Source: Chloroflexota bacterium (GTDB taxonomy: Bacteria > Chloroflexota > Dehalococcoidia > Lucifugimonadales > Australimonadaceae). From it: a stretch of 59,091 nt of DNA. The DNA lies in assembly GCA_028874795.1 (NCBI GenBank), contig JAPPHT010000022.1:1-59091 (forward strand), written 5' to 3'. The notes beneath the pieces are model-generated. The model was not told the origin of the DNA and searched no databases. It saw nothing but the letters and a program-made list of their open reading frames with translations. The translations under genes were made by a program, and so were the position numbers. Of this stretch, positions 21,563-39,301 are shown one piece after another (within the stretch, counting starts at the first letter, position 1; every line of letters begins with the position of its first letter).

Positions 21563-21800
21563 TCCGGACCTCCTTCCTGTCGAACGAAACCTCCGCATCT
21601 GCCAACCAACGATATACGTCGCAGAGTATAGCACCGGTGCGCAACGGCGCACAGGACACCACCGCGGGTTCTCAGCGAACAGCCAGCCATGATTGACTGT
21701 TTCCGGCGCTGATGCTACCGTTCCACTACGAGAAACATACGGCAGGACGAGCGGCAAGCGTCAGCGCTTGGACCATCGGAAAAGGAGCGGAGGTGGTTCG

Positions 21801-23192
21801 ATGGCAACCCTGGTGCGGAACGGCGCGGCAAGGCGAAACGGTAGCGAAGGATCGCGGCCCCGGTACGATTCCAGGGTCTATGACGAAGCCGTCCTGGGAT
21901 TCAAGAACTACTGGTACCCGGTCTTCTCCTCCAAGTCCGTCGGCAGGAAGCCCGTCGGCGCCACGATCATGGGCGAGGGGATCGTCTTCATGCGGACTCC
22001 CAAGGGTGTCGCAAGGGCGCTATCCAACGAGTGTGCACACAGGGGCACCCTCCTGTCGATCGGGGAGGGATGCCTGATCAAGGGTTCGGACACCATCACG
22101 TGCCCGTACCACGGCTGGACGTACGACCTGCACAGCGGTGTATGCGTCGCGGTGCTCCCCGAGGGCCCGAAGAGCGAAGTGCCGGGCAAGATCAGGATCC
22201 GTTCCTACCCCGTGGAGGAGCGCAAGGGCATCGTCTGGATCTGGATGGGCAAGGGTGACCCCGCTCCCATCGAGGAAGACATCCCTAACCTGATGCAGCG
22301 GGACGACGCCATCGTCAAGTTCCGGCCGAGAGTGCAGTACGGCAACTGGCGGTGGCACAGTGAGAACACTGCCGGCGGCCACGCGCAGATGATCCACAAG
22401 AGTTCGTTCCGCGTCTGGTTCACGAGGCCCCGGCCCATGAATCTCCCATCCCAGCCCCACGTCACCCACGACGTGGACGGCGTCGGAGTCGACAACGGTT
22501 TCATCCCCCGGGGGCAGGCGCTGCCGGGCGAGCCGAAACCCCCGACACCGTCCATGTACACGGAGTATCCGGGCCTGGGAACGTGGAGCCCCCAGCCGAA
22601 GTGGCGGCAGATACTGCTGTGGCCGTGGCTGCGCCGGTTCCGAAAGAGTCTCGGCTCCGAGGTCCACGGGGTCAGCAAGATGATGATGATGCTCCCGGGC
22701 GTGTTCAGGGTCCCGAACTTCCCGAGCGCCAGCAACATCTACTACGAGTGGTATGTGCCGGTCGACGAAGACCACTACCTCTACGCACAGGTCGCCTGCC
22801 TGTGGGGCTCCAATCCGATCCAGAGGCTGTGGAAGAACGTCTGGTACTACGCCTGGGGCAAGCCGACGGGACTGATCCAGTTCAACAACCAGGACCTCAC
22901 GTTCACCCGCCAGACGACCAACTACACGAAGCGGCATGGCATCACGTCGTACCCGCACACCAAGCTCAGCCGCAATGACGACTTCCACCGGACGTGGCGC
23001 CAGTTCGCATCTGAGTTCGCACGCGGCGAGGGTTACGCCTACGAGGACGGTTACAGAGCGGAAGACTCACCGCTCGTGGGCATGGTGCCGAACATCCCGT
23101 GGCTGGAGGATGCCCCGGCTGAGACCGAGGACAAGAAGGAGCCGACAGAGCAAAAACAGCCCGAGCCTGTCCCCGCAGGTGGGTCTGAGTAA
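21801..23192 (+). CDS. Rieske oxygenase-like protein lacking the bridging Asp, copy 1
   Basis: 463 residues. Rieske ligands are C78, H80, C101 and H104 (NECAHRGTL and ITCPYHGWTY). The iron site reads WHSENTAGGHAQMIHKS: His194 and His199 keep the H-x4-H spacing, but the position that should be the Asp linking the Rieske centre of one subunit to the iron of the next is Ala191. C-terminal residues 435-463 are acidic and Lys/Gln-rich, probably disordered. ATG 21801 follows GGAGGTGG. It forms a tandem pair with the related gene at 23358, which shares the defect. Likely an aromatic or cyclic-substrate oxygenase with altered electron-transfer wiring. Confidence 0.88.
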   Translation: MATLVRNGAARRNGSEGSRPRYDSRVYDEAVLGFKNYWYPVFSSKSVGRKPVGATIMGEGIVFMRTPKGVARALSNECAHRGTLLSIGEGCLIKGSDTITCPYHGWTYDLHSGVCVAVLPEGPKSEVPGKIRIRSYPVEERKGIVWIWMGKGDPAPIEEDIPNLMQRDDAIVKFRPRVQYGNWRWHSENTAGGHAQMIHKSSFRVWFTRPRPMNLPSQPHVTHDVDGVGVDNGFIPRGQALPGEPKPPTPSMYTEYPGLGTWSPQPKWRQILLWPWLRRFRKSLGSEVHGVSKMMMMLPGVFRVPNFPSASNIYYEWYVPVDEDHYLYAQVACLWGSNPIQRLWKNVWYYAWGKPTGLIQFNNQDLTFTRQTTNYTKRHGITSYPHTKLSRNDDFHRTWRQFASEFARGEGYAYEDGYRAEDSPLVGMVPNIPWLEDAPAETEDKKEPTEQKQPEPVPAGGSE

Positions 23193-23357
23193 GCATCGGC
23201 GAGACGCTGCACATCCACGGCAACGAAGCGGGTGGCACGGATTTCGTTGATTCCCGTGTCACCTTCCTCCATAATCCGGGATGTCCGCTGTATGCAGGAG
23301 GGTGTTCAGTAGCTGTCCCTGTTATGGGCGGCGGCGAGTCGCAAGGAGAGGGTTGTC

Positions 23358-24569
23358 ATGGCGACGAGTACACGTTCGAACGGTGTGGAGCACGCGAAGA
23401 CGCAGTCTCCGTATGAGGCGGCCGTCCTCGGCTTCCGGAATTACTGGTACCCCGTGTGTACCTCGAATGAGGTCGGCACGAAGCCGAAGGCGATCAAGTT
23501 CCTCGGCGACCCCGTCGCGCTGCTCCGGAGGAACGGGAAGGCCTATGCGGTCGCGGACCAGTGCGCACACCGTGGAACACAGCTCTCCCTGGGCAAGTAC
23601 GAGTTCCCCGGATCGAACACCCTCACGTGCCGCTACCACGGATGGACCTTTGACGTCACCAACGGCGTGTGCGTCGCCAACCTGACCGAAGGGCCGAACA
23701 GCGCGGTGGTCGGCAAGGTCAGAGTGCGCACGTATCCCGTGGAGGAACGCAAGGGCATCGTGTGGGTCTGGGCAGGAAGGGGCGCTCCGGCCCCGCTCGA
23801 AGAGGACGTCCCCAGGCTGATGCTGCAGGATGACGCGGTCGTCAAGGTCCGCGCGGGCATCAAGTACGGCAACTGGCGGTGGCACGCCGAGAACGTTGGC
23901 GGCGGGCACGCGTCGATGCTGCACCGCGACACGGTGGGCCTGTTCTTCAACCAGATGCCAGCCCACCCCATCGAGCCGTTCGCCTATAACGGCAAGCCCG
24001 AAGACGACGACGGCAAGTGGATCTTCCAGGGTTCGAAAGGGTCGTCGTCATACGACGAGTACCCTGGCCTTGGACGATGGCCGAAGCCGCGCCTGTGGCG
24101 TCGTTTGGGACGGCGGCCGCGACCCATGTTCGGACTCAACTACTTCGGCGCGGCCATCCGGCTGCCCGGGATCACGCGCGTCATGCACTTTCCGACTGTC
24201 GGCTGGTTCTACTACGAGTGGTATACGCCCGTGGACGAAGACCATTACGTCTACTTCCAGGTCTCCACGTTCCACACCACGAACCCCCTGCGAAAGCTCT
24301 GGGAGGGGTTCAAGTACCTGGTCTACGGGAAGCCGTTCAAGGTGACGCTGTTCAACAACCAGGACGTGCGGATGGTGCGGCAGACCACGAACTTCGTGAA
24401 GCGGCAGGGTATGAACTTCCTCACACCCCTGTCGATGCAGGACTCGTTCCACTTCGAGTGGCGCCGACAGGCCAATGAGCTTGCCCGCGGCGAGGGAAGG
24501 CCGGAGGAGCCGGCGGCGCCGGAGAGCGAACCCGAAGCGGAACCGGTCGCTGCGGGCACGTCTGCCTGA
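23358..24569 (+). CDS. Rieske oxygenase-like protein lacking the bridging Asp, copy 2
   Basis: 403 residues. Rieske ligands are C69, H71, C91 and H94 (DQCAHRGTQ and LTCRYHGWTF). The iron-site segment WHAENVGGGHASMLHRD gives His184 and His189, with Gly181 where the bridging Asp is expected. It resembles the preceding gene over most of its length (shared GFRNYWYPV, FYYEWYTPVDEDHY and RQTTNF motifs) but lacks that protein's insert around residues 220-260. ATG 23358 follows AAGGAG. The C-terminus is Glu/Pro/Ala-rich. A 9-bp hairpin follows the stop. Confidence 0.88.
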   Translation: MATSTRSNGVEHAKTQSPYEAAVLGFRNYWYPVCTSNEVGTKPKAIKFLGDPVALLRRNGKAYAVADQCAHRGTQLSLGKYEFPGSNTLTCRYHGWTFDVTNGVCVANLTEGPNSAVVGKVRVRTYPVEERKGIVWVWAGRGAPAPLEEDVPRLMLQDDAVVKVRAGIKYGNWRWHAENVGGGHASMLHRDTVGLFFNQMPAHPIEPFAYNGKPEDDDGKWIFQGSKGSSSYDEYPGLGRWPKPRLWRRLGRRPRPMFGLNYFGAAIRLPGITRVMHFPTVGWFYYEWYTPVDEDHYVYFQVSTFHTTNPLRKLWEGFKYLVYGKPFKVTLFNNQDVRMVRQTTNFVKRQGMNFLTPLSMQDSFHFEWRRQANELARGEGRPEEPAAPESEPEAEPVAAGTSA

Positions 24570-31225: not shown

Positions 31226-32161
31226 ATGCTGGGACTAGGCCTTGCAGCCCCTTACGCTCACGCCATGTACCGCGACTCAGGCGAGTGGAAGACCATCCAC
31301 GATTGGTTGGCCGGAGACGCCCCTCAGCCGCTGGAGCTCGCTGACGAGACCGATGCCGTTGTCCGGGAGCACGCAGCACGCGTCAAGGAGAACCTCGACA
31401 GGCTCCGCTCCGAACTGGAAGCGTACAACCCTTCCGCCCTCGTCGTGCTGGTGACCGATTCAGGCCGGATGTTCAGCCGCGTACAGGTGCCCCAGTTCTG
31501 CACGTTCCTTGGAGCCGGCGCCTGGGGCAGCACCCGGCTGGAGGGGCTCGGAGAAGCGGCAACCGACGACATGGTGGAGTTCTCGTGCGATACCGAGCTG
31601 GCCGCCTTCGTGCAGGAGGAACTGGTGGCCCATGGGTTCGACATGAGCTACAGCAAGGAGATGAACCCGCAGGGCCAGCCGGAATTCGGTATGCCCGTAT
31701 CGCTCGTGACGCTGGTACGGGCGCTGAACCCCGGCCTCGACCTCCCGATCGTCCCGGTCCTGGTGAACTGCCATGTCGCGCCCTCGCCTTCCGGCTGGCG
31801 CTGCCGCGAGTTCGGGCGGGCGCTCGGGACGATCCTCGACGAGCCTGACCAGCGCATCGCACTGGCGGTCTCCGGTGGGCTGTCGCACGACCACCACGGC
31901 CCGCGAGCAGGCTGGATCGACTATCCCTTCGATCAATGGATGTTAAAGCAGGTATCGCGCGGGCGGGGCGCGAACCTGGACCCCATCTGGAACCTGGAGT
32001 CAGACAGCGTACACGGGGGCACCGCCGAGGTCCGTCTCTGGGCGGCCCTGGCAGGCGCCTGCGAAAGCCTGGGCGGCAAGGCTGTGGTGGACGACTACTT
32101 CCCGGCCTACACGGCAGCGACCGGCCTGGGTTTCGCGCACTACTCGCTCAACCGTGGATGA
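31226..32161 (+). CDS. LigB-superfamily class III extradiol dioxygenase-like protein
   Basis: 311 residues. The N-terminus MLGLGLAAPYAHAM puts a His at residue 12, ALVVLVTDSGRMF matches the strand after the first helix pair, and LAVSGGLSHDHHGPRAGWID contains the conserved SHD motif. NLESDSVHGGTAEVRLWAAL resembles the C-terminal GGTGExR region of the copy at 20600-21562. Similarity between these two is stronger than to the copy at 25520. ATG 31226 follows CTGGAGG. Its place 75 bases after the TRAP permease suggests the imported compound could be its substrate or be converted to it. Confidence 0.85.
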   Translation: MLGLGLAAPYAHAMYRDSGEWKTIHDWLAGDAPQPLELADETDAVVREHAARVKENLDRLRSELEAYNPSALVVLVTDSGRMFSRVQVPQFCTFLGAGAWGSTRLEGLGEAATDDMVEFSCDTELAAFVQEELVAHGFDMSYSKEMNPQGQPEFGMPVSLVTLVRALNPGLDLPIVPVLVNCHVAPSPSGWRCREFGRALGTILDEPDQRIALAVSGGLSHDHHGPRAGWIDYPFDQWMLKQVSRGRGANLDPIWNLESDSVHGGTAEVRLWAALAGACESLGGKAVVDDYFPAYTAATGLGFAHYSLNRG

Positions 32162-32263: not shown

Positions 32264-33547
32264 ATGAACGCTAATCCATCGCTCTCCAGCCGCATCGGCC
32301 GATTGCTTGATGTGTTCAGCACACTCAGGTACAGGAACATGCGGCTGTTCTGGTCCGGCCTCCTTGCGCAGGTCGCGGGACAGCAGATGATGACGGTCAC
32401 CATAGGGTGGCTCGCATTCGAGTTGACCGAATCGCCGCTTGCGCTGGGCATCATCAACCTCCTGCTCGCTGCCCCGCGCATCGTCCTCAACCTCGTGGGC
32501 GGAGCGCTCGCCGACCGGTGGGACCAGCGTACGCTCATCGTCATCGGCCAGTCCCTTGCAATGGTCGTGCTGTTGGCACTCGCTACCCTGACCCTGACCG
32601 GGAATGTCGAGGTCTGGCATCTTGGCGCCGGAGCGCTGCTGATCGGCTTCTTCCACGCCCTGGAGGAGCCCAGCCGGGCGTCTCTGTTCCCCCACCTGTT
32701 GCCACGACGGGACCTGCTGCCGACGGCGGTGCCGTTGATCAGCATGGCCTGGCAGCTGAGCCGGCTCACTGCCCCTGCCATAGCGGGCTTCGTGATCCAC
32801 GCCGCCGGGGCCGGCACCTCGTTCTTCATCTCCGCAGCCGGCGGAGCCCTCATGATCACGATGATCCGCCTGCTCCAGGTTGGCCGGATACCGCGCGACC
32901 AACGTGGAAGCATCCTGCAGAGCATCTCTGAGGGCATGAAGTACGCCTGGGGTTACGACGTATTCCGCATCGTCATCGGCATGGCCTTCTTCAACAGCCT
33001 GCTGGCGATGGGCTACATCCTCATGCTGCCCGTCTTCGCGGCCGACGTCTTCCAGGTGGACTCGCGAGGGCTCGGCCTTCTCTACTCCTTCGGTGGCGTC
33101 GGCGGCATCGTCGCTCTGCTCACCGTCTCGAAGATGGTCAGGAGGCTCGGGCCGGGCAAGGTCATCCTGGGGGGGATCATCGTACTGAATTCGGCTCTTA
33201 TAGCGTTCGCCCTCAGCCCTTCATTCGAGTTGGCCCTGGCCTTCATGACACTCGTCGGTTTCGCCGGGCACGTCTACCTCACTGGGGGTGAGGTGCTGCT
33301 CCAGATGCTCGTTCCGGACGAACTACGCGGCCGCGTGATGGGCCTCTACCAGTCGCTCTGGAGCATCATGCCTCTGGGCGCGGCGCTCCTGAACTCCATC
33401 GCCGAGTTTGCCGGCGCTCCCCTCGCACTGGCGGGCGGGTCCGCGACGGTCCTCCTGTTCGCTCTGGTAATCGGGCTTCCCAACAAGGCCCTTCGCTCTT
33501 CCAGCGTCGAGACCCCAGCCGAGCCTGAGCGAGCCGGCCAGGCATAG
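32264..33547 (+). CDS. MFS transporter, EntS/MFS_3-like
   Basis: 427 residues with about twelve hydrophobic segments. FRNMRLFWSG-type start (YRNMRLFWSGLLAQVAGQQM), the loop 2-3 motif GGALADRWDQR and the mid-protein HALEEPSRASLFPHLLPRRD followed by LLPTAVPL are characteristic of the MFS_3/EntS-type exporter group. LQMLVPDELRGRVMGLYQS is the equivalent motif in the second half. Likely role is export of a small molecule or metabolite. ATG 32264 has only a weak binding site. A GC-rich hairpin follows the stop. Confidence 0.88.
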   Translation: MNANPSLSSRIGRLLDVFSTLRYRNMRLFWSGLLAQVAGQQMMTVTIGWLAFELTESPLALGIINLLLAAPRIVLNLVGGALADRWDQRTLIVIGQSLAMVVLLALATLTLTGNVEVWHLGAGALLIGFFHALEEPSRASLFPHLLPRRDLLPTAVPLISMAWQLSRLTAPAIAGFVIHAAGAGTSFFISAAGGALMITMIRLLQVGRIPRDQRGSILQSISEGMKYAWGYDVFRIVIGMAFFNSLLAMGYILMLPVFAADVFQVDSRGLGLLYSFGGVGGIVALLTVSKMVRRLGPGKVILGGIIVLNSALIAFALSPSFELALAFMTLVGFAGHVYLTGGEVLLQMLVPDELRGRVMGLYQSLWSIMPLGAALLNSIAEFAGAPLALAGGSATVLLFALVIGLPNKALRSSSVETPAEPERAGQA

Positions 33548-33674: not shown

Positions 33675-34667
33675 TCAGCGCCGCATGGCCGGGGTCTGCA
33701 GCCCCATGGCAGGCCGCCCGGCCGGCATCGCCTCTTCCGCCTTGGCGTACATCGCCTCGAGGTTCTCGGGAAAGGAGTGGTCGGTCCAGTCCAGGTACTT
33801 CCCATAGCCGTGGTCGTGGTTCCAGTCCGGCACCGAGTACAGCATGCCGGTCACCCCGCTCCCGTCCTGTCCGGCAAGGAACAGCGTGATCGGCACGAGG
33901 TGTTCGGATACGACGGGACGGAAGCCGTAGACGACTCCCTTCTCCTGCCAAGCGTTCGCTGTCGCATCGAACCAGGATGCGCGGGTGTGGCCAGGCATGA
34001 TGGCGTTCACCGCCACACCCTGAGCACGGACCTCGTCCCCCAGGTAGAAGGTCATCGCCATGATGGCCGCCTTGGTCGACTGGTACGGCATCTCCAGCGT
34101 GAACGGGCGGAGGCCGAACCATCCACCCCCACCGGCCACCGGCAGGACTCCGCTGCTCACCACGTTGATGATGCTGCCGCTGCCCTTTTCGATCATCGGT
34201 CCGATGAAGTGGCGGATCGTCTTGACCACGCCGAAGACGTTCACCTCGAACATCGTCTTCCAGTCGGCGTCCGAGGTGTCGAGCATCCTGACCCGTCCCG
34301 TGGGGGCGAACAGCGTCTCCGAGACCAACGCCGCATTGTTCACGAGGACGTCTGCGGGGCCGAGCGCTTCCGTTATCCGGGCCTGGGCGGCGTCGATCTG
34401 CTCGTCGTCCGTTATGTCCATCTCCACCGCGGTCCCGCGCCCGGAGGACTCCAGTTGCTGTCGCAGCTCGTCGGCCCCCGCCAGCGTCTTGTCCACCACG
34501 GCTACCTTCGCGCCAGCACGCAGCAGTCCCTCGGCCATAGCCTTGCCGATGCCGCGGGCGCCGCCGGTGATCACCACTACTCGGTCCTCAACGTCACCTC
34601 TAGAACGCTCGATAGCGCGTTCCACCATCTCCGTCTGAAAGGCCTTCTTGTCAGCTGCTTCAACCAT
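33675..34667 (-). CDS. Short-chain dehydrogenase/reductase, possible dihydrodiol dehydrogenase
   Basis: 330 residues. The Rossmann motif is VVVITGGARGIGKAMAEG, VNNAALVS is the NNAG equivalent, and the active site is VVSSGVLP with YQSTK. An N-terminal extension of about 27 residues (AFQTEMVERAIERSRGDVED) and a C-terminal extension beyond residue 270 (DWNHDHGYGKYLDWTDH) are unusual for a classical SDR. As last gene after alpha-alpha-alpha-beta oxygenase subunits it could oxidise the cis-dihydrodiol to a catechol, as BenD- and NahB-type enzymes do; this is inferred from position. ATG 34667 follows GGAGAGG. Confidence 0.88.
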   Translation of the reverse strand: MVEAADKKAFQTEMVERAIERSRGDVEDRVVVITGGARGIGKAMAEGLLRAGAKVAVVDKTLAGADELRQQLESSGRGTAVEMDITDDEQIDAAQARITEALGPADVLVNNAALVSETLFAPTGRVRMLDTSDADWKTMFEVNVFGVVKTIRHFIGPMIEKGSGSIINVVSSGVLPVAGGGGWFGLRPFTLEMPYQSTKAAIMAMTFYLGDEVRAQGVAVNAIMPGHTRASWFDATANAWQEKGVVYGFRPVVSEHLVPITLFLAGQDGSGVTGMLYSVPDWNHDHGYGKYLDWTDHSFPENLEAMYAKAEEAMPAGRPAMGLQTPAMRR

Positions 34668-34712: not shown

Positions 34713-35201
34713 CTAGAAGAATATCGTGATGCCCCGGGGTAGAACGATAGAGTCCAGCAGCACCTCGCGCCGCGCGATCTTCCACCCGCCGTCCTCGCGC
34801 CTGAGCACGTCCTTCCTCCGACCGGCCCACCAGGCCTCGTCGCGCAGCTTCCTGGCCTGGCGGACCAGGAAGTTGCTGTACACCCGTAGTTCCGTTGGGT
34901 TGTCCCCGTCCTCGATCAGGATGTTCGTGACGATGTGCTCCGTCAGCGACCGGGGGATTTCGACGTGCGACAGCCCCGTCTCGTGCTTCTTGGCGCGCAT
35001 CGTCAGCATCAGCTTGTCGTCTTTAATGATGGGATGTCCGGCCGGTTCGACATCCCCCTGTAGGTGCTCGCGCAGCGGCATGGTGTACTCGATGTCTTCA
35101 GACAGCATGTCCAGCCACTCGTCGAAGCGCATCTCGTCCAGCAGGAATGCCTCTCGATAGAGGAACTCCTCCACTTCTCGCTTCTGTTCCAACGTCAGCA
35201 T
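34713..35201 (-). CDS. Aromatic-ring-hydroxylating dioxygenase beta subunit
   Basis: 162 residues of the ring-hydroxylating beta-subunit (SnoaL-like cone) family. LYREAFLLDEMRFDEWLDML and SEDIEYTMPLRE form the typical N-terminal helix and first strand, followed by HIVTNILIEDGDNPTELRVY, SNFLVRQARK and WWAGRRKDVLRR. It starts 5 bases after the nearest alpha gene stops, with the binding site GGAGGCG inside the alpha stop region. It is the only beta gene in the window and probably partners with one or all three alpha subunits. The role is structural in an alpha3beta3 hexamer. Confidence 0.93.
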   Translation of the reverse strand: MLTLEQKREVEEFLYREAFLLDEMRFDEWLDMLSEDIEYTMPLREHLQGDVEPAGHPIIKDDKLMLTMRAKKHETGLSHVEIPRSLTEHIVTNILIEDGDNPTELRVYSNFLVRQARKLRDEAWWAGRRKDVLRREDGGWKIARREVLLDSIVLPRGITIFF

Positions 35202-35206
35202 GATTT

Positions 35207-36544
35207 CTACGCCTCCATGAGCTCCAGCCAGAACCGGTAGAAGTTCCGCTGGTTGATCTCGCTCGGGTTCGGGCCAACCTGTCCGGGGATTCCCTGCGGC
35301 GCCTCTTCCTCGTGGCCCAGTTGCAGCCTGTAGTTGTGCGGCTTGCGCCAGTTCCGTGGGGCCCGCATCGCTTCCACTATCCTTTCCTGGTTCTCCACGT
35401 CGTCCGGTGCGATCGTCCCGGCCATGTGCTGGCCGCGGTAGGCGTACTCGGCCGCTACCTCCTTGACGATCGCGGGCGCCTCCTTCTCAACCATCGTCCA
35501 CTGCCACTGCTCCATCTCCGCAGTCCCACGGGGATGGAACAGCAGGAACTGCCGGCCTGCCAGCGGCGAGAGGAAACCCATAAGCCCCAGGTTCGGAAAG
35601 ATGGCGCCGTTCTGGAAGCTGTACGGGGCTATCTCGTACTCCTTCATCACCTCCTGGAACCGGCTGTTTCGGTAGCGCACCCACTCCACGGCGTCGTGAC
35701 CGATCTTCTCGGCAAGCGCCAGGTCCTGTTCGTATGCCTGCTGACCCAGCACCATGTTCCCGAAGCCCATGGGGCAGCCCTTCAGGTAACCCGTCGTTAC
35801 CTCGTACCGCTTCGCTGCTATCGACGCGGCCGCCCTCCGTATCGGGTACCCCTTCTGGGTGAACTCCTGCACGACCTTGAGCCACGATACGTGCGTCGCC
35901 GCAATCACGTGGTAGTCGTCTCCTATGAAGTTCTCCGCGAGGTGCTTCCAGTTCCCCGGTGTGCGGTACCGATGCCAGCCCGGAAGCGCCTCAAGACCCC
36001 CCAGGTGCTCCACCAGAACGTAGTTCCGCAACCACCAGCAACCGTCCTCACCCAACCACTCCTCCAACGACGGCGCCGACTGGTCGAACGTCGCGAAGAT
36101 CAGCCCCTTGTAGCTCGCTACCCGCACCTGCTCGAGACCCCAGCTGTCGTGGTCGATCTCGTCGCGGTACAACTCCTTCTCCATCGGCACACCGATCAGC
36201 TTCCCGCTGATCTCGTACGTCCATCCGTGATACGAGCACGTGAAAGCCCGCGCGTTCCCACGGTCGAAGAGACACACCTCGTTCCCCCGGTGGACGCACC
36301 GGTTCACGAGCACGTGCAACTCTCCCTCCATGTCACGGGAGACAACCACCGGGACCTCGCCCATGTAGTTGGTCACGTAGTCGCCGGGCTTGCGGAGCAT
36401 GTCTTCGTGCCCCACCACCATCCAGACCTTCTCGAAGACCTTCGTCTGCTCTTCGCGGTACAGCTCCTTGTCGAACAGAACGGAGGGCGAGATGAGCCCT
36501 TCCTGCCAGTTGACCACTTCGCGCAACTCACCAAGGCTGACCAT
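35207..36544 (-). CDS. Rieske dioxygenase alpha subunit, copy A (most diverged)
   Basis: 445 residues. Rieske ligands are C83, H85, C103 and H106 (NRCVHRGNE and FTCSYHGWTY). The iron site is NFIGDDYHVIAATH, giving bridging D209, H212 and H218 in the D-x2-H-x5-H spacing of biphenyl-dioxygenase-type enzymes. It is third in the operon and adjacent to beta. It differs from copies B and C mainly in residues 221-300 (FTQKGYPIRRAAAS, NMVLGQQAYEQDLALAEK), the catalytic-domain section likely to line the pocket. Start 36544 follows GGAAGGGAG; the upstream frame extension is a shadow of copy B's end. Confidence 0.93.
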   Translation of the reverse strand: MVSLGELREVVNWQEGLISPSVLFDKELYREEQTKVFEKVWMVVGHEDMLRKPGDYVTNYMGEVPVVVSRDMEGELHVLVNRCVHRGNEVCLFDRGNARAFTCSYHGWTYEISGKLIGVPMEKELYRDEIDHDSWGLEQVRVASYKGLIFATFDQSAPSLEEWLGEDGCWWLRNYVLVEHLGGLEALPGWHRYRTPGNWKHLAENFIGDDYHVIAATHVSWLKVVQEFTQKGYPIRRAAASIAAKRYEVTTGYLKGCPMGFGNMVLGQQAYEQDLALAEKIGHDAVEWVRYRNSRFQEVMKEYEIAPYSFQNGAIFPNLGLMGFLSPLAGRQFLLFHPRGTAEMEQWQWTMVEKEAPAIVKEVAAEYAYRGQHMAGTIAPDDVENQERIVEAMRAPRNWRKPHNYRLQLGHEEEAPQGIPGQVGPNPSEINQRNFYRFWLELMEA

Positions 36545-36581
36545 GGCTGCCTGCTCCCTTCCGGTACGTAGGGTCCTTACT

Positions 36582-37922
36582 CTAGGCTTCCATGAGCTCG
36601 AGCCAGAACCGGTAGAAGTTCCGCTGGTTGATCTCGCTCGGGTTCGGACCGACCTGTCCCGGGATGCCTTGCGGCGCCTCTTCCTCGTGGCCCAGTTGCA
36701 GCCTGTAGTTGTGCGGCTTGCGCCAGTTCCGCGGCGCGCGCATCGCCTCAACTATCCGCTCCTGGTTCTCCACGTCGTCCGGTGCAATCGTTCCGGCCAT
36801 ATGCTGGCCCCGGTAAACGTACTCGGCCGCCACCTCTTTGACGATCGGCGGCGCCTCCTTCTCAACCATCGTCCACTGCCATTGCTCCATCTCCTTGACG
36901 CCGCGGGGGTGGAACAACAGGAAATGGCGGCCTGCCATCGGCGAGAAGAAGCCCATGAGTCCAAGGTTCGGGAAGATGGCGCCGTTCATGAAGCTGTACG
37001 GGGCCAATTCGTACTCCTTCATAACCTCTTCGTACTGCCGGCGGCGGTACTGCACCCACTCCACGACGTCAGGGCCCAGCTTCTGGGCCATCGCAAGGTC
37101 GTGCTCATGAGCGGCCGGGTCCATGGTGACGTTCCCGAAGCCTATCGGGCACCCCTTCAGGTAACCCGTCGTTACCTCGTACCTGCGCGTCCGGGCGACC
37201 GACGAGTCGATCCGCCGCATCTCGTAGCCCTTCTCCATGAACTCCTGCATCACCTTGAACCACGACACGTGCGTCGCGGCGAACACGTGGTAGTCGTCTC
37301 CTATGAAGTTCTCCGCAAGGTGCTTCCAGTTCCCCGGCGTGCTGTAGCGATGCATGCCCGGAAGCGCCTCGAGGCCCCCCAGGTGCTCCACGAGAACGTA
37401 GTTCCGCAGCCACCAGCACCCGTCCTCTCCCAACCACTCCTCCAACCCCGGCGCCGACTGGTCGAACGTCGCGAAGATCAGCCCCTTGTAGCTCGCTACT
37501 CGCGCCTGCTCCAACCCCCAGCTGTCGTGGTCGATCTCGTCACGGTACAGTTCCTTCTCCATCGGCACACCGATCAGCTTCCCGCTGATCTCGTACGTCC
37601 ACCCGTGGTACGAGCACGTGAACGCCCGTGCGTTCCCCCGGTCGAACAGGCATACCTCGTTCCCGCGGTGGACGCACCGGTTCACCAGGACGTGGAGTTC
37701 CCCTTCCATGTCGCGGGAAACGACGACCGGGACCTCGCCCATGTAGTTCGTCACGTAGTCGCCCGGTTTGCGGAGCATGTCCTCGTGGCCCACAACCAGC
37801 CAGGCCTTCTCAAAGACCTTCATCTGCTCTTCGCGATACAACTCCTCGTCGAACAGCACGGAGGGGGAGATGAGCCCCTCTCTCCAGTTCACCACTTCGC
37901 GCAACTCGCTCACGCTGACCAT
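36582..37922 (-). CDS. Rieske dioxygenase alpha subunit, copy B
   Basis: 446 residues, with the same Rieske (C83, H85, C103, H106) and iron-site (D209, H212, H218) residues as copy A. Residues 43-139 are identical in all three copies, and the last 70 residues (ending RNFYRFWLELMEA) match copy A exactly or nearly so. The variable stretch reads FMEKGYEMRRIDSS and GNVTMDPAAHEHDLAMAQK, close to copy C. The ATG follows GGGAGG. Only 37 bases separate it from copy A and 38 from copy C, so a single transcript is likely. Confidence 0.93.
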   Translation of the reverse strand: MVSVSELREVVNWREGLISPSVLFDEELYREEQMKVFEKAWLVVGHEDMLRKPGDYVTNYMGEVPVVVSRDMEGELHVLVNRCVHRGNEVCLFDRGNARAFTCSYHGWTYEISGKLIGVPMEKELYRDEIDHDSWGLEQARVASYKGLIFATFDQSAPGLEEWLGEDGCWWLRNYVLVEHLGGLEALPGMHRYSTPGNWKHLAENFIGDDYHVFAATHVSWFKVMQEFMEKGYEMRRIDSSVARTRRYEVTTGYLKGCPIGFGNVTMDPAAHEHDLAMAQKLGPDVVEWVQYRRRQYEEVMKEYELAPYSFMNGAIFPNLGLMGFFSPMAGRHFLLFHPRGVKEMEQWQWTMVEKEAPPIVKEVAAEYVYRGQHMAGTIAPDDVENQERIVEAMRAPRNWRKPHNYRLQLGHEEEAPQGIPGQVGPNPSEINQRNFYRFWLELMEA

Positions 37923-37960
37923 GGCGCTTGCCTCCCTTCGCTGTGCTCAGACTCCTCGCT

Positions 37961-39301
37961 CTACGCCTCCATGAGTTCGAGCCAGAACCGGTAGAAGTTC
38001 CGCTGGTTGACCTCGCTCGGGTTCGGGCCCATGTGTCCGGGTATCCCCTGGGGCGCCTCTTCCTCGTGGCCAACCTGCAGCCTGTAGTTGTGCGGCTTGC
38101 GCCAGTTCCGTGGGGCCCGCATCGCTTCCACTATCCGCTCCATGTTCTCCACGTCGTCCGGAGCGATGATCCCCGCCATGTGCTGGCCGCGGTAAACGTA
38201 CTCGGCCGCCACCTCTTTGACGATCGCGGGCGCTTCCTTCTCAACCATCGTCCATTGCCACTGCTCCATCTCCCCGACCCCGCGGGGGTGGAACAACAGG
38301 AAATGACGGCCCGACATCGGTGAGAAGTAGCCCATGAGTCCAAGGTTGGGGAAGATCCCGCCGTTCATGAAGCAGTACGGGGCCAATTCGTACTCTTTCT
38401 TCACCTCTTCGTATTGCCGGCGGCGGTACTGCACCCACTCCACGACGTCAGGGCCCAGCTTCTCGGCCTCCGCCAGGTCGTGCTCATAGACGACCGGGTC
38501 CATGGTGACATGCCCGAAGCCCATCGGGCAGCCCTTCAGGTAGCCGGTCGTGGCCTCGTACCTGCGCGACCGGGAAAGCGACCCGTCGACCGACCGCACC
38601 TGATGGCCCTTCTCTGCGAACTCCTGCAGCACCTTGAACCACGACACGTGTGTCGCGGCGAACACGTGGTAGTCGTCTCCTATGAAGTTCTCCGCAAGGT
38701 GCTTCCAGTTCCCCGGTGTGCTGTAGCGATGCATGCCGGGAAGCACCTCCAGGCCCCCCAGGTTCTCCACCAGAACGTAGTTCCGCAACCACCAGCAACC
38801 GTCCTCGCCCAACCACTCCTCCAACGACGGCGCCGACTGGTCGAAAGTCGCGAAGATCAGCCCCTTGTAGCTGGCAACCCGCACCTGTTCCAGTCCCCAA
38901 CTGTCGTGGTCGATCTCGTCCCGGTACAGCTCCTTCTCCATCGGAACGCCGATCAGCTTCCCGCTGATCTCGTACGTCCATCCGTGGTACGAGCACGTGA
39001 ACGCCCGCGCATTCCCTCGGTCGAACAGGCATACCTCGTTCCCCCGGTGCACACACCGGTTCACCAGCACGTGCAGTTCTCCCTCCATGTCACGGGAGAC
39101 AACCACCGGGACCTCGCCCATGTAGTTCGTCACGTAGTCGCCCGGCTTGCGGAGCATGTCCTCGTGCCCTACCACCAGCCACGCCTTCTCGAATACCTTC
39201 GACTGCTCTTCGCGGTACAACTCCTCATCGAAGAGGACGGTGGGCGCGATGAGCCCCTCTTTCCAGTTCACCACTTCGCGCAATTCACTGACGCTGACCA
39301 T
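37961..39301 (-). CDS. Rieske dioxygenase alpha subunit, copy C (operon-proximal)
   Basis: 446 residues, first gene of the operon. All Rieske and iron ligands are conserved in the same positions as copies A and B. It is closest to B, with differences in residues 236-300 (FAEKGHQVRSVDGS, GHVTMDPVVYEHDLAEAEK) and small ones elsewhere (VENLGGLEVLPGM, HMAGIIAPDDVENME). Start 39301 follows GGGAGC and aligns with the MVSVSELREVVNW start of B. A longer frame to 39343 lacks homology with the other copies. Confidence 0.93.
   Translation of the reverse strand: MVSVSELREVVNWKEGLIAPTVLFDEELYREEQSKVFEKAWLVVGHEDMLRKPGDYVTNYMGEVPVVVSRDMEGELHVLVNRCVHRGNEVCLFDRGNARAFTCSYHGWTYEISGKLIGVPMEKELYRDEIDHDSWGLEQVRVASYKGLIFATFDQSAPSLEEWLGEDGCWWLRNYVLVENLGGLEVLPGMHRYSTPGNWKHLAENFIGDDYHVFAATHVSWFKVLQEFAEKGHQVRSVDGSLSRSRRYEATTGYLKGCPMGFGHVTMDPVVYEHDLAEAEKLGPDVVEWVQYRRRQYEEVKKEYELAPYCFMNGGIFPNLGLMGYFSPMSGRHFLLFHPRGVGEMEQWQWTMVEKEAPAIVKEVAAEYVYRGQHMAGIIAPDDVENMERIVEAMRAPRNWRKPHNYRLQVGHEEEAPQGIPGHMGPNPSEVNQRNFYRFWLELMEA

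Follow-up and report, generated by a model that had tools for sequence, protein, structure and literature searches.

The window, the whole 59,091-nucleotide stretch of a Chloroflexota contig that we analysed, carries on its minus strand (39301-33675) a run of three alpha-subunit genes of ring-hydroxylating dioxygenases, then one beta-subunit gene, then one SDR gene, as judged from open reading frames and Pfam matches. The first gene of this presumably co-transcribed operon, A1 (37961-39301, 446 aa), is followed by A2 (36582-37922, 446 aa) and A3 (35207-36544, 445 aa), and each of the three encodes Rieske (PF00355) and Ring_hydroxyl_A (PF00848) domains that score above cut-off. The operon's sole beta gene (34713-35201; 162 aa; PF00866, E 3.6e-33; HcaF-like subfamily, E 5e-42) starts 5 nt past A3, and the SDR gene (33675-34667; 330 aa; PF00106), probably encoding a cis-dihydrodiol dehydrogenase, comes last; the intergenic gaps, in the order A1-A2-A3-beta-SDR, are 38, 37, 5 and 45 nt. 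A sequence-only reading had described three tandem alphas served by one beta and one SDR, and the genes do lie where it placed them, all on one strand. Every alpha has a ribosome-binding site (AAGGGAG) 9 nt ahead of its ATG, and the leaders are alike (the A1 ATG is at 39301). A scan of the minus strand found no promoter-like sites, terminator-like sites on that strand were no more frequent than chance, and the operon contains no ferredoxin gene. Past the SDR gene, on the opposite strand, lie an MFS transporter gene (32264-33547, plus strand; PF05977/PF07690) and, beyond it, a gene for a LigB-type extradiol ring-cleavage dioxygenase (31226-32161, plus strand; PF02900, E 1.4e-19) that probably acts in a later step of the pathway. 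Elsewhere in the window (21693-24569, plus strand), two adjoining genes encode homotrimer-type Rieske oxygenases (PF11723), with a further SDR gene and a weak LigB-like gene close by.

All residues expected to hold the cofactors are present in all three alphas. The Rieske ligands C83, H85, C103 and H106 (a CxH...CxxH motif) are invariant across A1, A2 and A3, as are, by alignment to RHA1 BphA1, the bridging aspartate D209 and the iron ligands H212, H218 and D383, so that every copy has a 2-His-1-carboxylate iron site with its bridging Asp. The earlier claim that C83, H85, C103, H106, D209, H212 and H218 are kept in every copy is thereby borne out, with one amendment to its list of iron-site residues: D209 is the bridging aspartate, and the third iron ligand, D383, had been omitted. 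A single-chain AlphaFold2 model of A2 (pLDDT 87.8, pTM 0.90) found biphenyl dioxygenase alpha subunits (2xr8/1uli) as its top Foldseek matches, and because the best PDB matches are biphenyl dioxygenases we assign the three proteins, by homology, to the BphA/HcaE type of alpha subunit. They do not pass as HcaE itself (3-phenylpropionate/cinnamate dioxygenase), with scores of 258-265 bits vs an NCBIfam equivalog cut-off of 830. The beta subunit, whose closest solved structures are 1uli_B and 8k0a_B, is predicted to be of the HcaF/BphA2 kind, and at the gene level a PF00866 beta next to the alphas is what the alpha3-beta3 (BphA/HcaE-like) type has. The gene count, three alphas and one beta, is not the 1:1 ratio of a one-alpha one-beta operon.

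The copies are neither recent nor decaying. Their proteins are 88-91% identical (A1/A2 91%, A2/A3 88%), and their whole-gene divergence, about 0.43-0.55 per synonymous site, rules out an assembly-level or recent duplication. Whole-gene dN/dS among the copies is 0.11-0.17, which argues that all three alphas are maintained. Intact frames, retained ligands and this purifying selection also rule out a pseudogene among them, and the impression from the sequence that no copy looks inactive stands. Within the Rieske domain (residues 41-160) just 3 of 120 positions vary in the trio. Recent gene conversion as the source of this near-identity is not supported: synonymous divergence there is 0.44-0.54, so the protein identity reflects selection rather than recent copying (dN/dS in the domain is 0.01-0.04, and the longest identical nucleotide run in the comparison is 65 nt). 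A weak mosaic signal is present in residues 221-345, where synonymous sites differ more than elsewhere between A1 and A3 (p 0.0013) and less than elsewhere between A1 and A2 (p 0.027).

The differences between the copies are concentrated near where substrate would enter. The trio varies at 75 positions, 51 of them within residues 219-345, which include the entrance and the distal pocket, and A3 is the copy that diverges most in the pocket region. Residues 221-345 carry 62-74% of the trio's differences vs 37-45% in pairs of single-copy relatives at similar synonymous divergence; the excess gives Fisher p values of 0.011-0.11 for A1/A2 and between 0.005 and 4e-5 for pairs that include A3, in tests whose pairs are not independent. 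When pocket positions were assigned by alignment to residues published for the RHA1 and B-356 enzymes (PMC3536784), the trio proved variable at positions 233-235 in the entrance and at 267 and 326 in the distal pocket, and the proximal subsite and iron ligands were invariant. Assignments of single positions within 221-300 are tentative, since this stretch aligns to distant structures with many gaps and is where the A2 model is least confident (block pLDDT 60-77). Since the divergence sits mainly at the substrate entrance, the operon probably makes three enzyme versions that would differ in substrate range. The same stretch, residues 221-300, is also fast in single-copy relatives (dN/dS 0.20-0.50). 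Positive selection (dN/dS > 1) in the pocket region was sought and is not supported, the highest value being 0.54. Adaptive divergence of the pocket region is suggested rather than proven, because dN/dS is below 1 everywhere, and the divergence of the copies could largely be relaxed constraint.

Is the beta subunit shared? In the B-356 structure, beta touches the helix preceding the third iron ligand and, less so, the Rieske domain (PMC3536784). With beta contacts assigned by homology to the B-356 enzyme, the counterparts of both parts are near-invariant in the trio, the D383-bearing helix varying at 1 of 14 positions and the Rieske domain as little as described above. This pattern of change, with a near-frozen Rieske domain and beta-contact helix and a variable entrance and distal pocket, supports the arrangement that would be expected of interchangeable alphas on one beta, and a local beta common to the three alphas is the simplest reading and a likely one. 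"Single beta" holds for this operon and not for the genome, which has 12 betas. Separate beta genes elsewhere, which the sequence-only reading had named as evidence against sharing, do therefore exist in part: of the 11 outside this operon, eight lie near their own single alpha (one of these alphas, on contig C47, being a partial match), two are in a cluster on contig C10 and one is in a cluster on contig C81. Some of the alphas could be served by these other betas, which counts against sharing of the local one. A search of the open-access literature returned nothing relevant on shared-beta alpha arrays.

The closest relatives of the alphas, 56-62% identical, come from Actinomycetota (Pseudonocardia, Geodermatophilus, Modestobacter, Streptomyces) and the Novosphingobium plasmid pCAR3. 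Wherever enough contig was available, these relatives have one alpha and then one beta, with an SDR (58-64% identical to the one here) and/or LigB (33-38%) in the cluster; no beta was seen for L047, a relative at 52% that sits on a short MAG contig. In a phylogenetic tree the trio forms one clade (support 100/100) within or beside the group of single-alpha relatives. Given the 1:1 ratio in its nearest relatives, the arrangement is derived, and so the alpha was triplicated within an ordinary alpha-beta operon. A search of related genomes, as had been proposed, did not find the operon in 59 relatives or in even samples, which overlap, of 393 genomes of the class and 400 of the phylum. The genome belongs to Chloroflexota and probably to the Dehalococcoidia (SAR202-like): for its ATP synthase beta, identity is 78% with a Dehalococcoidia genome and 74% with an order-mate (G018), vs 58-63% with Actinomycetota and Proteobacteria. 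The simplest history would be that an alpha-beta-SDR-LigB cluster was acquired and its alpha was then triplicated in tandem.

An excess of alphas over betas is not confined to this operon. The C81 cluster of the same genome (C81:41101-52907; L039 5102-16908) has six alphas and one beta: four alphas lie on the plus strand, with a MetE-like gene ahead of the fourth, and two alphas, the beta and an ABM-domain gene lie on the minus strand. Its alphas form one clade separate from the trio in the tree; the two expansions are independent. Two inverted paralogues in this cluster (L039 8041-8403 and 15391-15029) are identical along a 363-nt tract in the Rieske domain, with flanks that differ at 0.60-0.73 of synonymous sites; the tract is probably the product of domain-limited gene conversion, and a repeat-related assembly error is possible. 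In the order-mate G018 we counted 34 such alphas against 8 betas, and in a partial genome (G429, that of L054) 30 alphas against a single beta fragment; many of these alphas have no beta nearby. The trio's own genome has about 80 Rieske-type matches in all, and a search of it for a ferredoxin reductase with Reductase_C (PF14759) found none. In published work on SAR202 Chloroflexota, alpha genes outnumber beta genes and most group VII alphas are proposed to work without beta (PMC6946804). The alpha excess is less unusual than the sequence-only reading implied, as it recurs in C81 (6:1), in G018 (34:8) and in SAR202.

We favour, at a probability of roughly 60%, a triplicated alpha that shares one beta and yields several oxygenases feeding common downstream enzymes. 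The starting point would be an alpha3-beta3 Rieske dioxygenase operon of the ordinary sort (alpha, beta and SDR, with LigB nearby), probably obtained by transfer, in which tandem triplication of the alpha gene left every copy with its own ribosome-binding site. Divergence of the copies was then greatest at the entrance for substrate and in the distal pocket. Two parts that have to fit common partners stayed near-frozen: the Rieske domain, which passes electrons to the adjacent alpha and is presumed to dock ferredoxin, and the helix whose homologous counterpart touches beta. One beta would serve three alphas, giving several oxygenases from a single operon, and the products of all versions would pass to the same dehydrogenase and ring-cleavage enzymes.

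The pocket differences could instead be near-neutral drift in a tolerant region, the copies serving mainly to boost the amount of alpha. Residues 221-300 are the fastest part in most single-copy comparisons too and dN never exceeds dS, as drift would predict, but a 3:1 alpha:beta gene dose would leave surplus alpha over a 3:3 complex and the pocket region takes a larger share of the changes than in single-copy relatives; we regard gene dosage as unlikely. It is quite unlikely that A3, which adjoins beta, alone forms an alpha-beta enzyme, with A1 and A2 working without beta, forming alpha homotrimers or being lost. Alphas without a nearby beta are indeed common in the related genomes G018 and G429, and the proposal for SAR202 group VII points the same way, but all three copies keep their frames, ligands and near-frozen beta-contact helix under purifying selection, and beta lies directly downstream in the nearest relatives (L047 aside).

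Two or three alpha types might also mix in one ring on the common beta, giving a combinatorial enzyme. In the B-356 structure electrons go from the Rieske cluster of one alpha to the adjacent alpha (PMC3536784), and with so few variable Rieske positions mixing would be tolerated; the data, however, need no mixing and are explained equally by homotrimers on a common beta, and we consider mixed hexamers possible but quite unlikely. A broader proposal, which we think unlikely, is a combinatorial oxygenase in which one beta and a near-invariant Rieske module would carry interchangeable pockets, mixed-alpha hexamers would form in vivo, and amplification of alpha alone, of which this genome has two independent cases, would be a repeated route to a wider substrate range in these Chloroflexota.

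Under the shared-beta reading, the operon suggests a way for Chloroflexota poor in betas to exploit big families of alphas on diverse aromatic matter: copying just the subunit that bears the pocket and leaving the other machinery as it is. The operon is also a compact natural test of beta sharing among alphas and of alpha mixing within one ring. It resembles BphA1A2 (RHA1), BphAE (LB400) and HcaEF in fold, in Rieske and iron-site residues and in beta family, with BphA leading the PDB matches in both sequence and structure searches, and HcaE/HcaF leading among NCBIfam models; unlike them, it has three alphas per beta, scores far under the HcaE cut-off and lacks a ferredoxin gene, in a genome with no Reductase_C match. 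The operons of Pseudonocardia, Geodermatophilus, Modestobacter, Streptomyces and pCAR3 are like it in their alphas, in their betas (58-67% identical) and in their SDR and/or LigB, but have one alpha each. The SAR202 Rieske families, in the relevant passages of two papers (PMC6946804, PMC6123686), share the large excess of alpha over beta, the link to aromatic catabolism and a Chloroflexota host; PMC6946804 counts genes genome-wide, the word "tandem" is absent from either main text, and those passages do not treat where copies differ. Because the SAR202 excess of alpha over beta is already in print in PMC6946804, the present one surprises less. Set beside these systems, the operon is a real, derived and well-maintained variant of a known enzyme kind, and not unique in kind.
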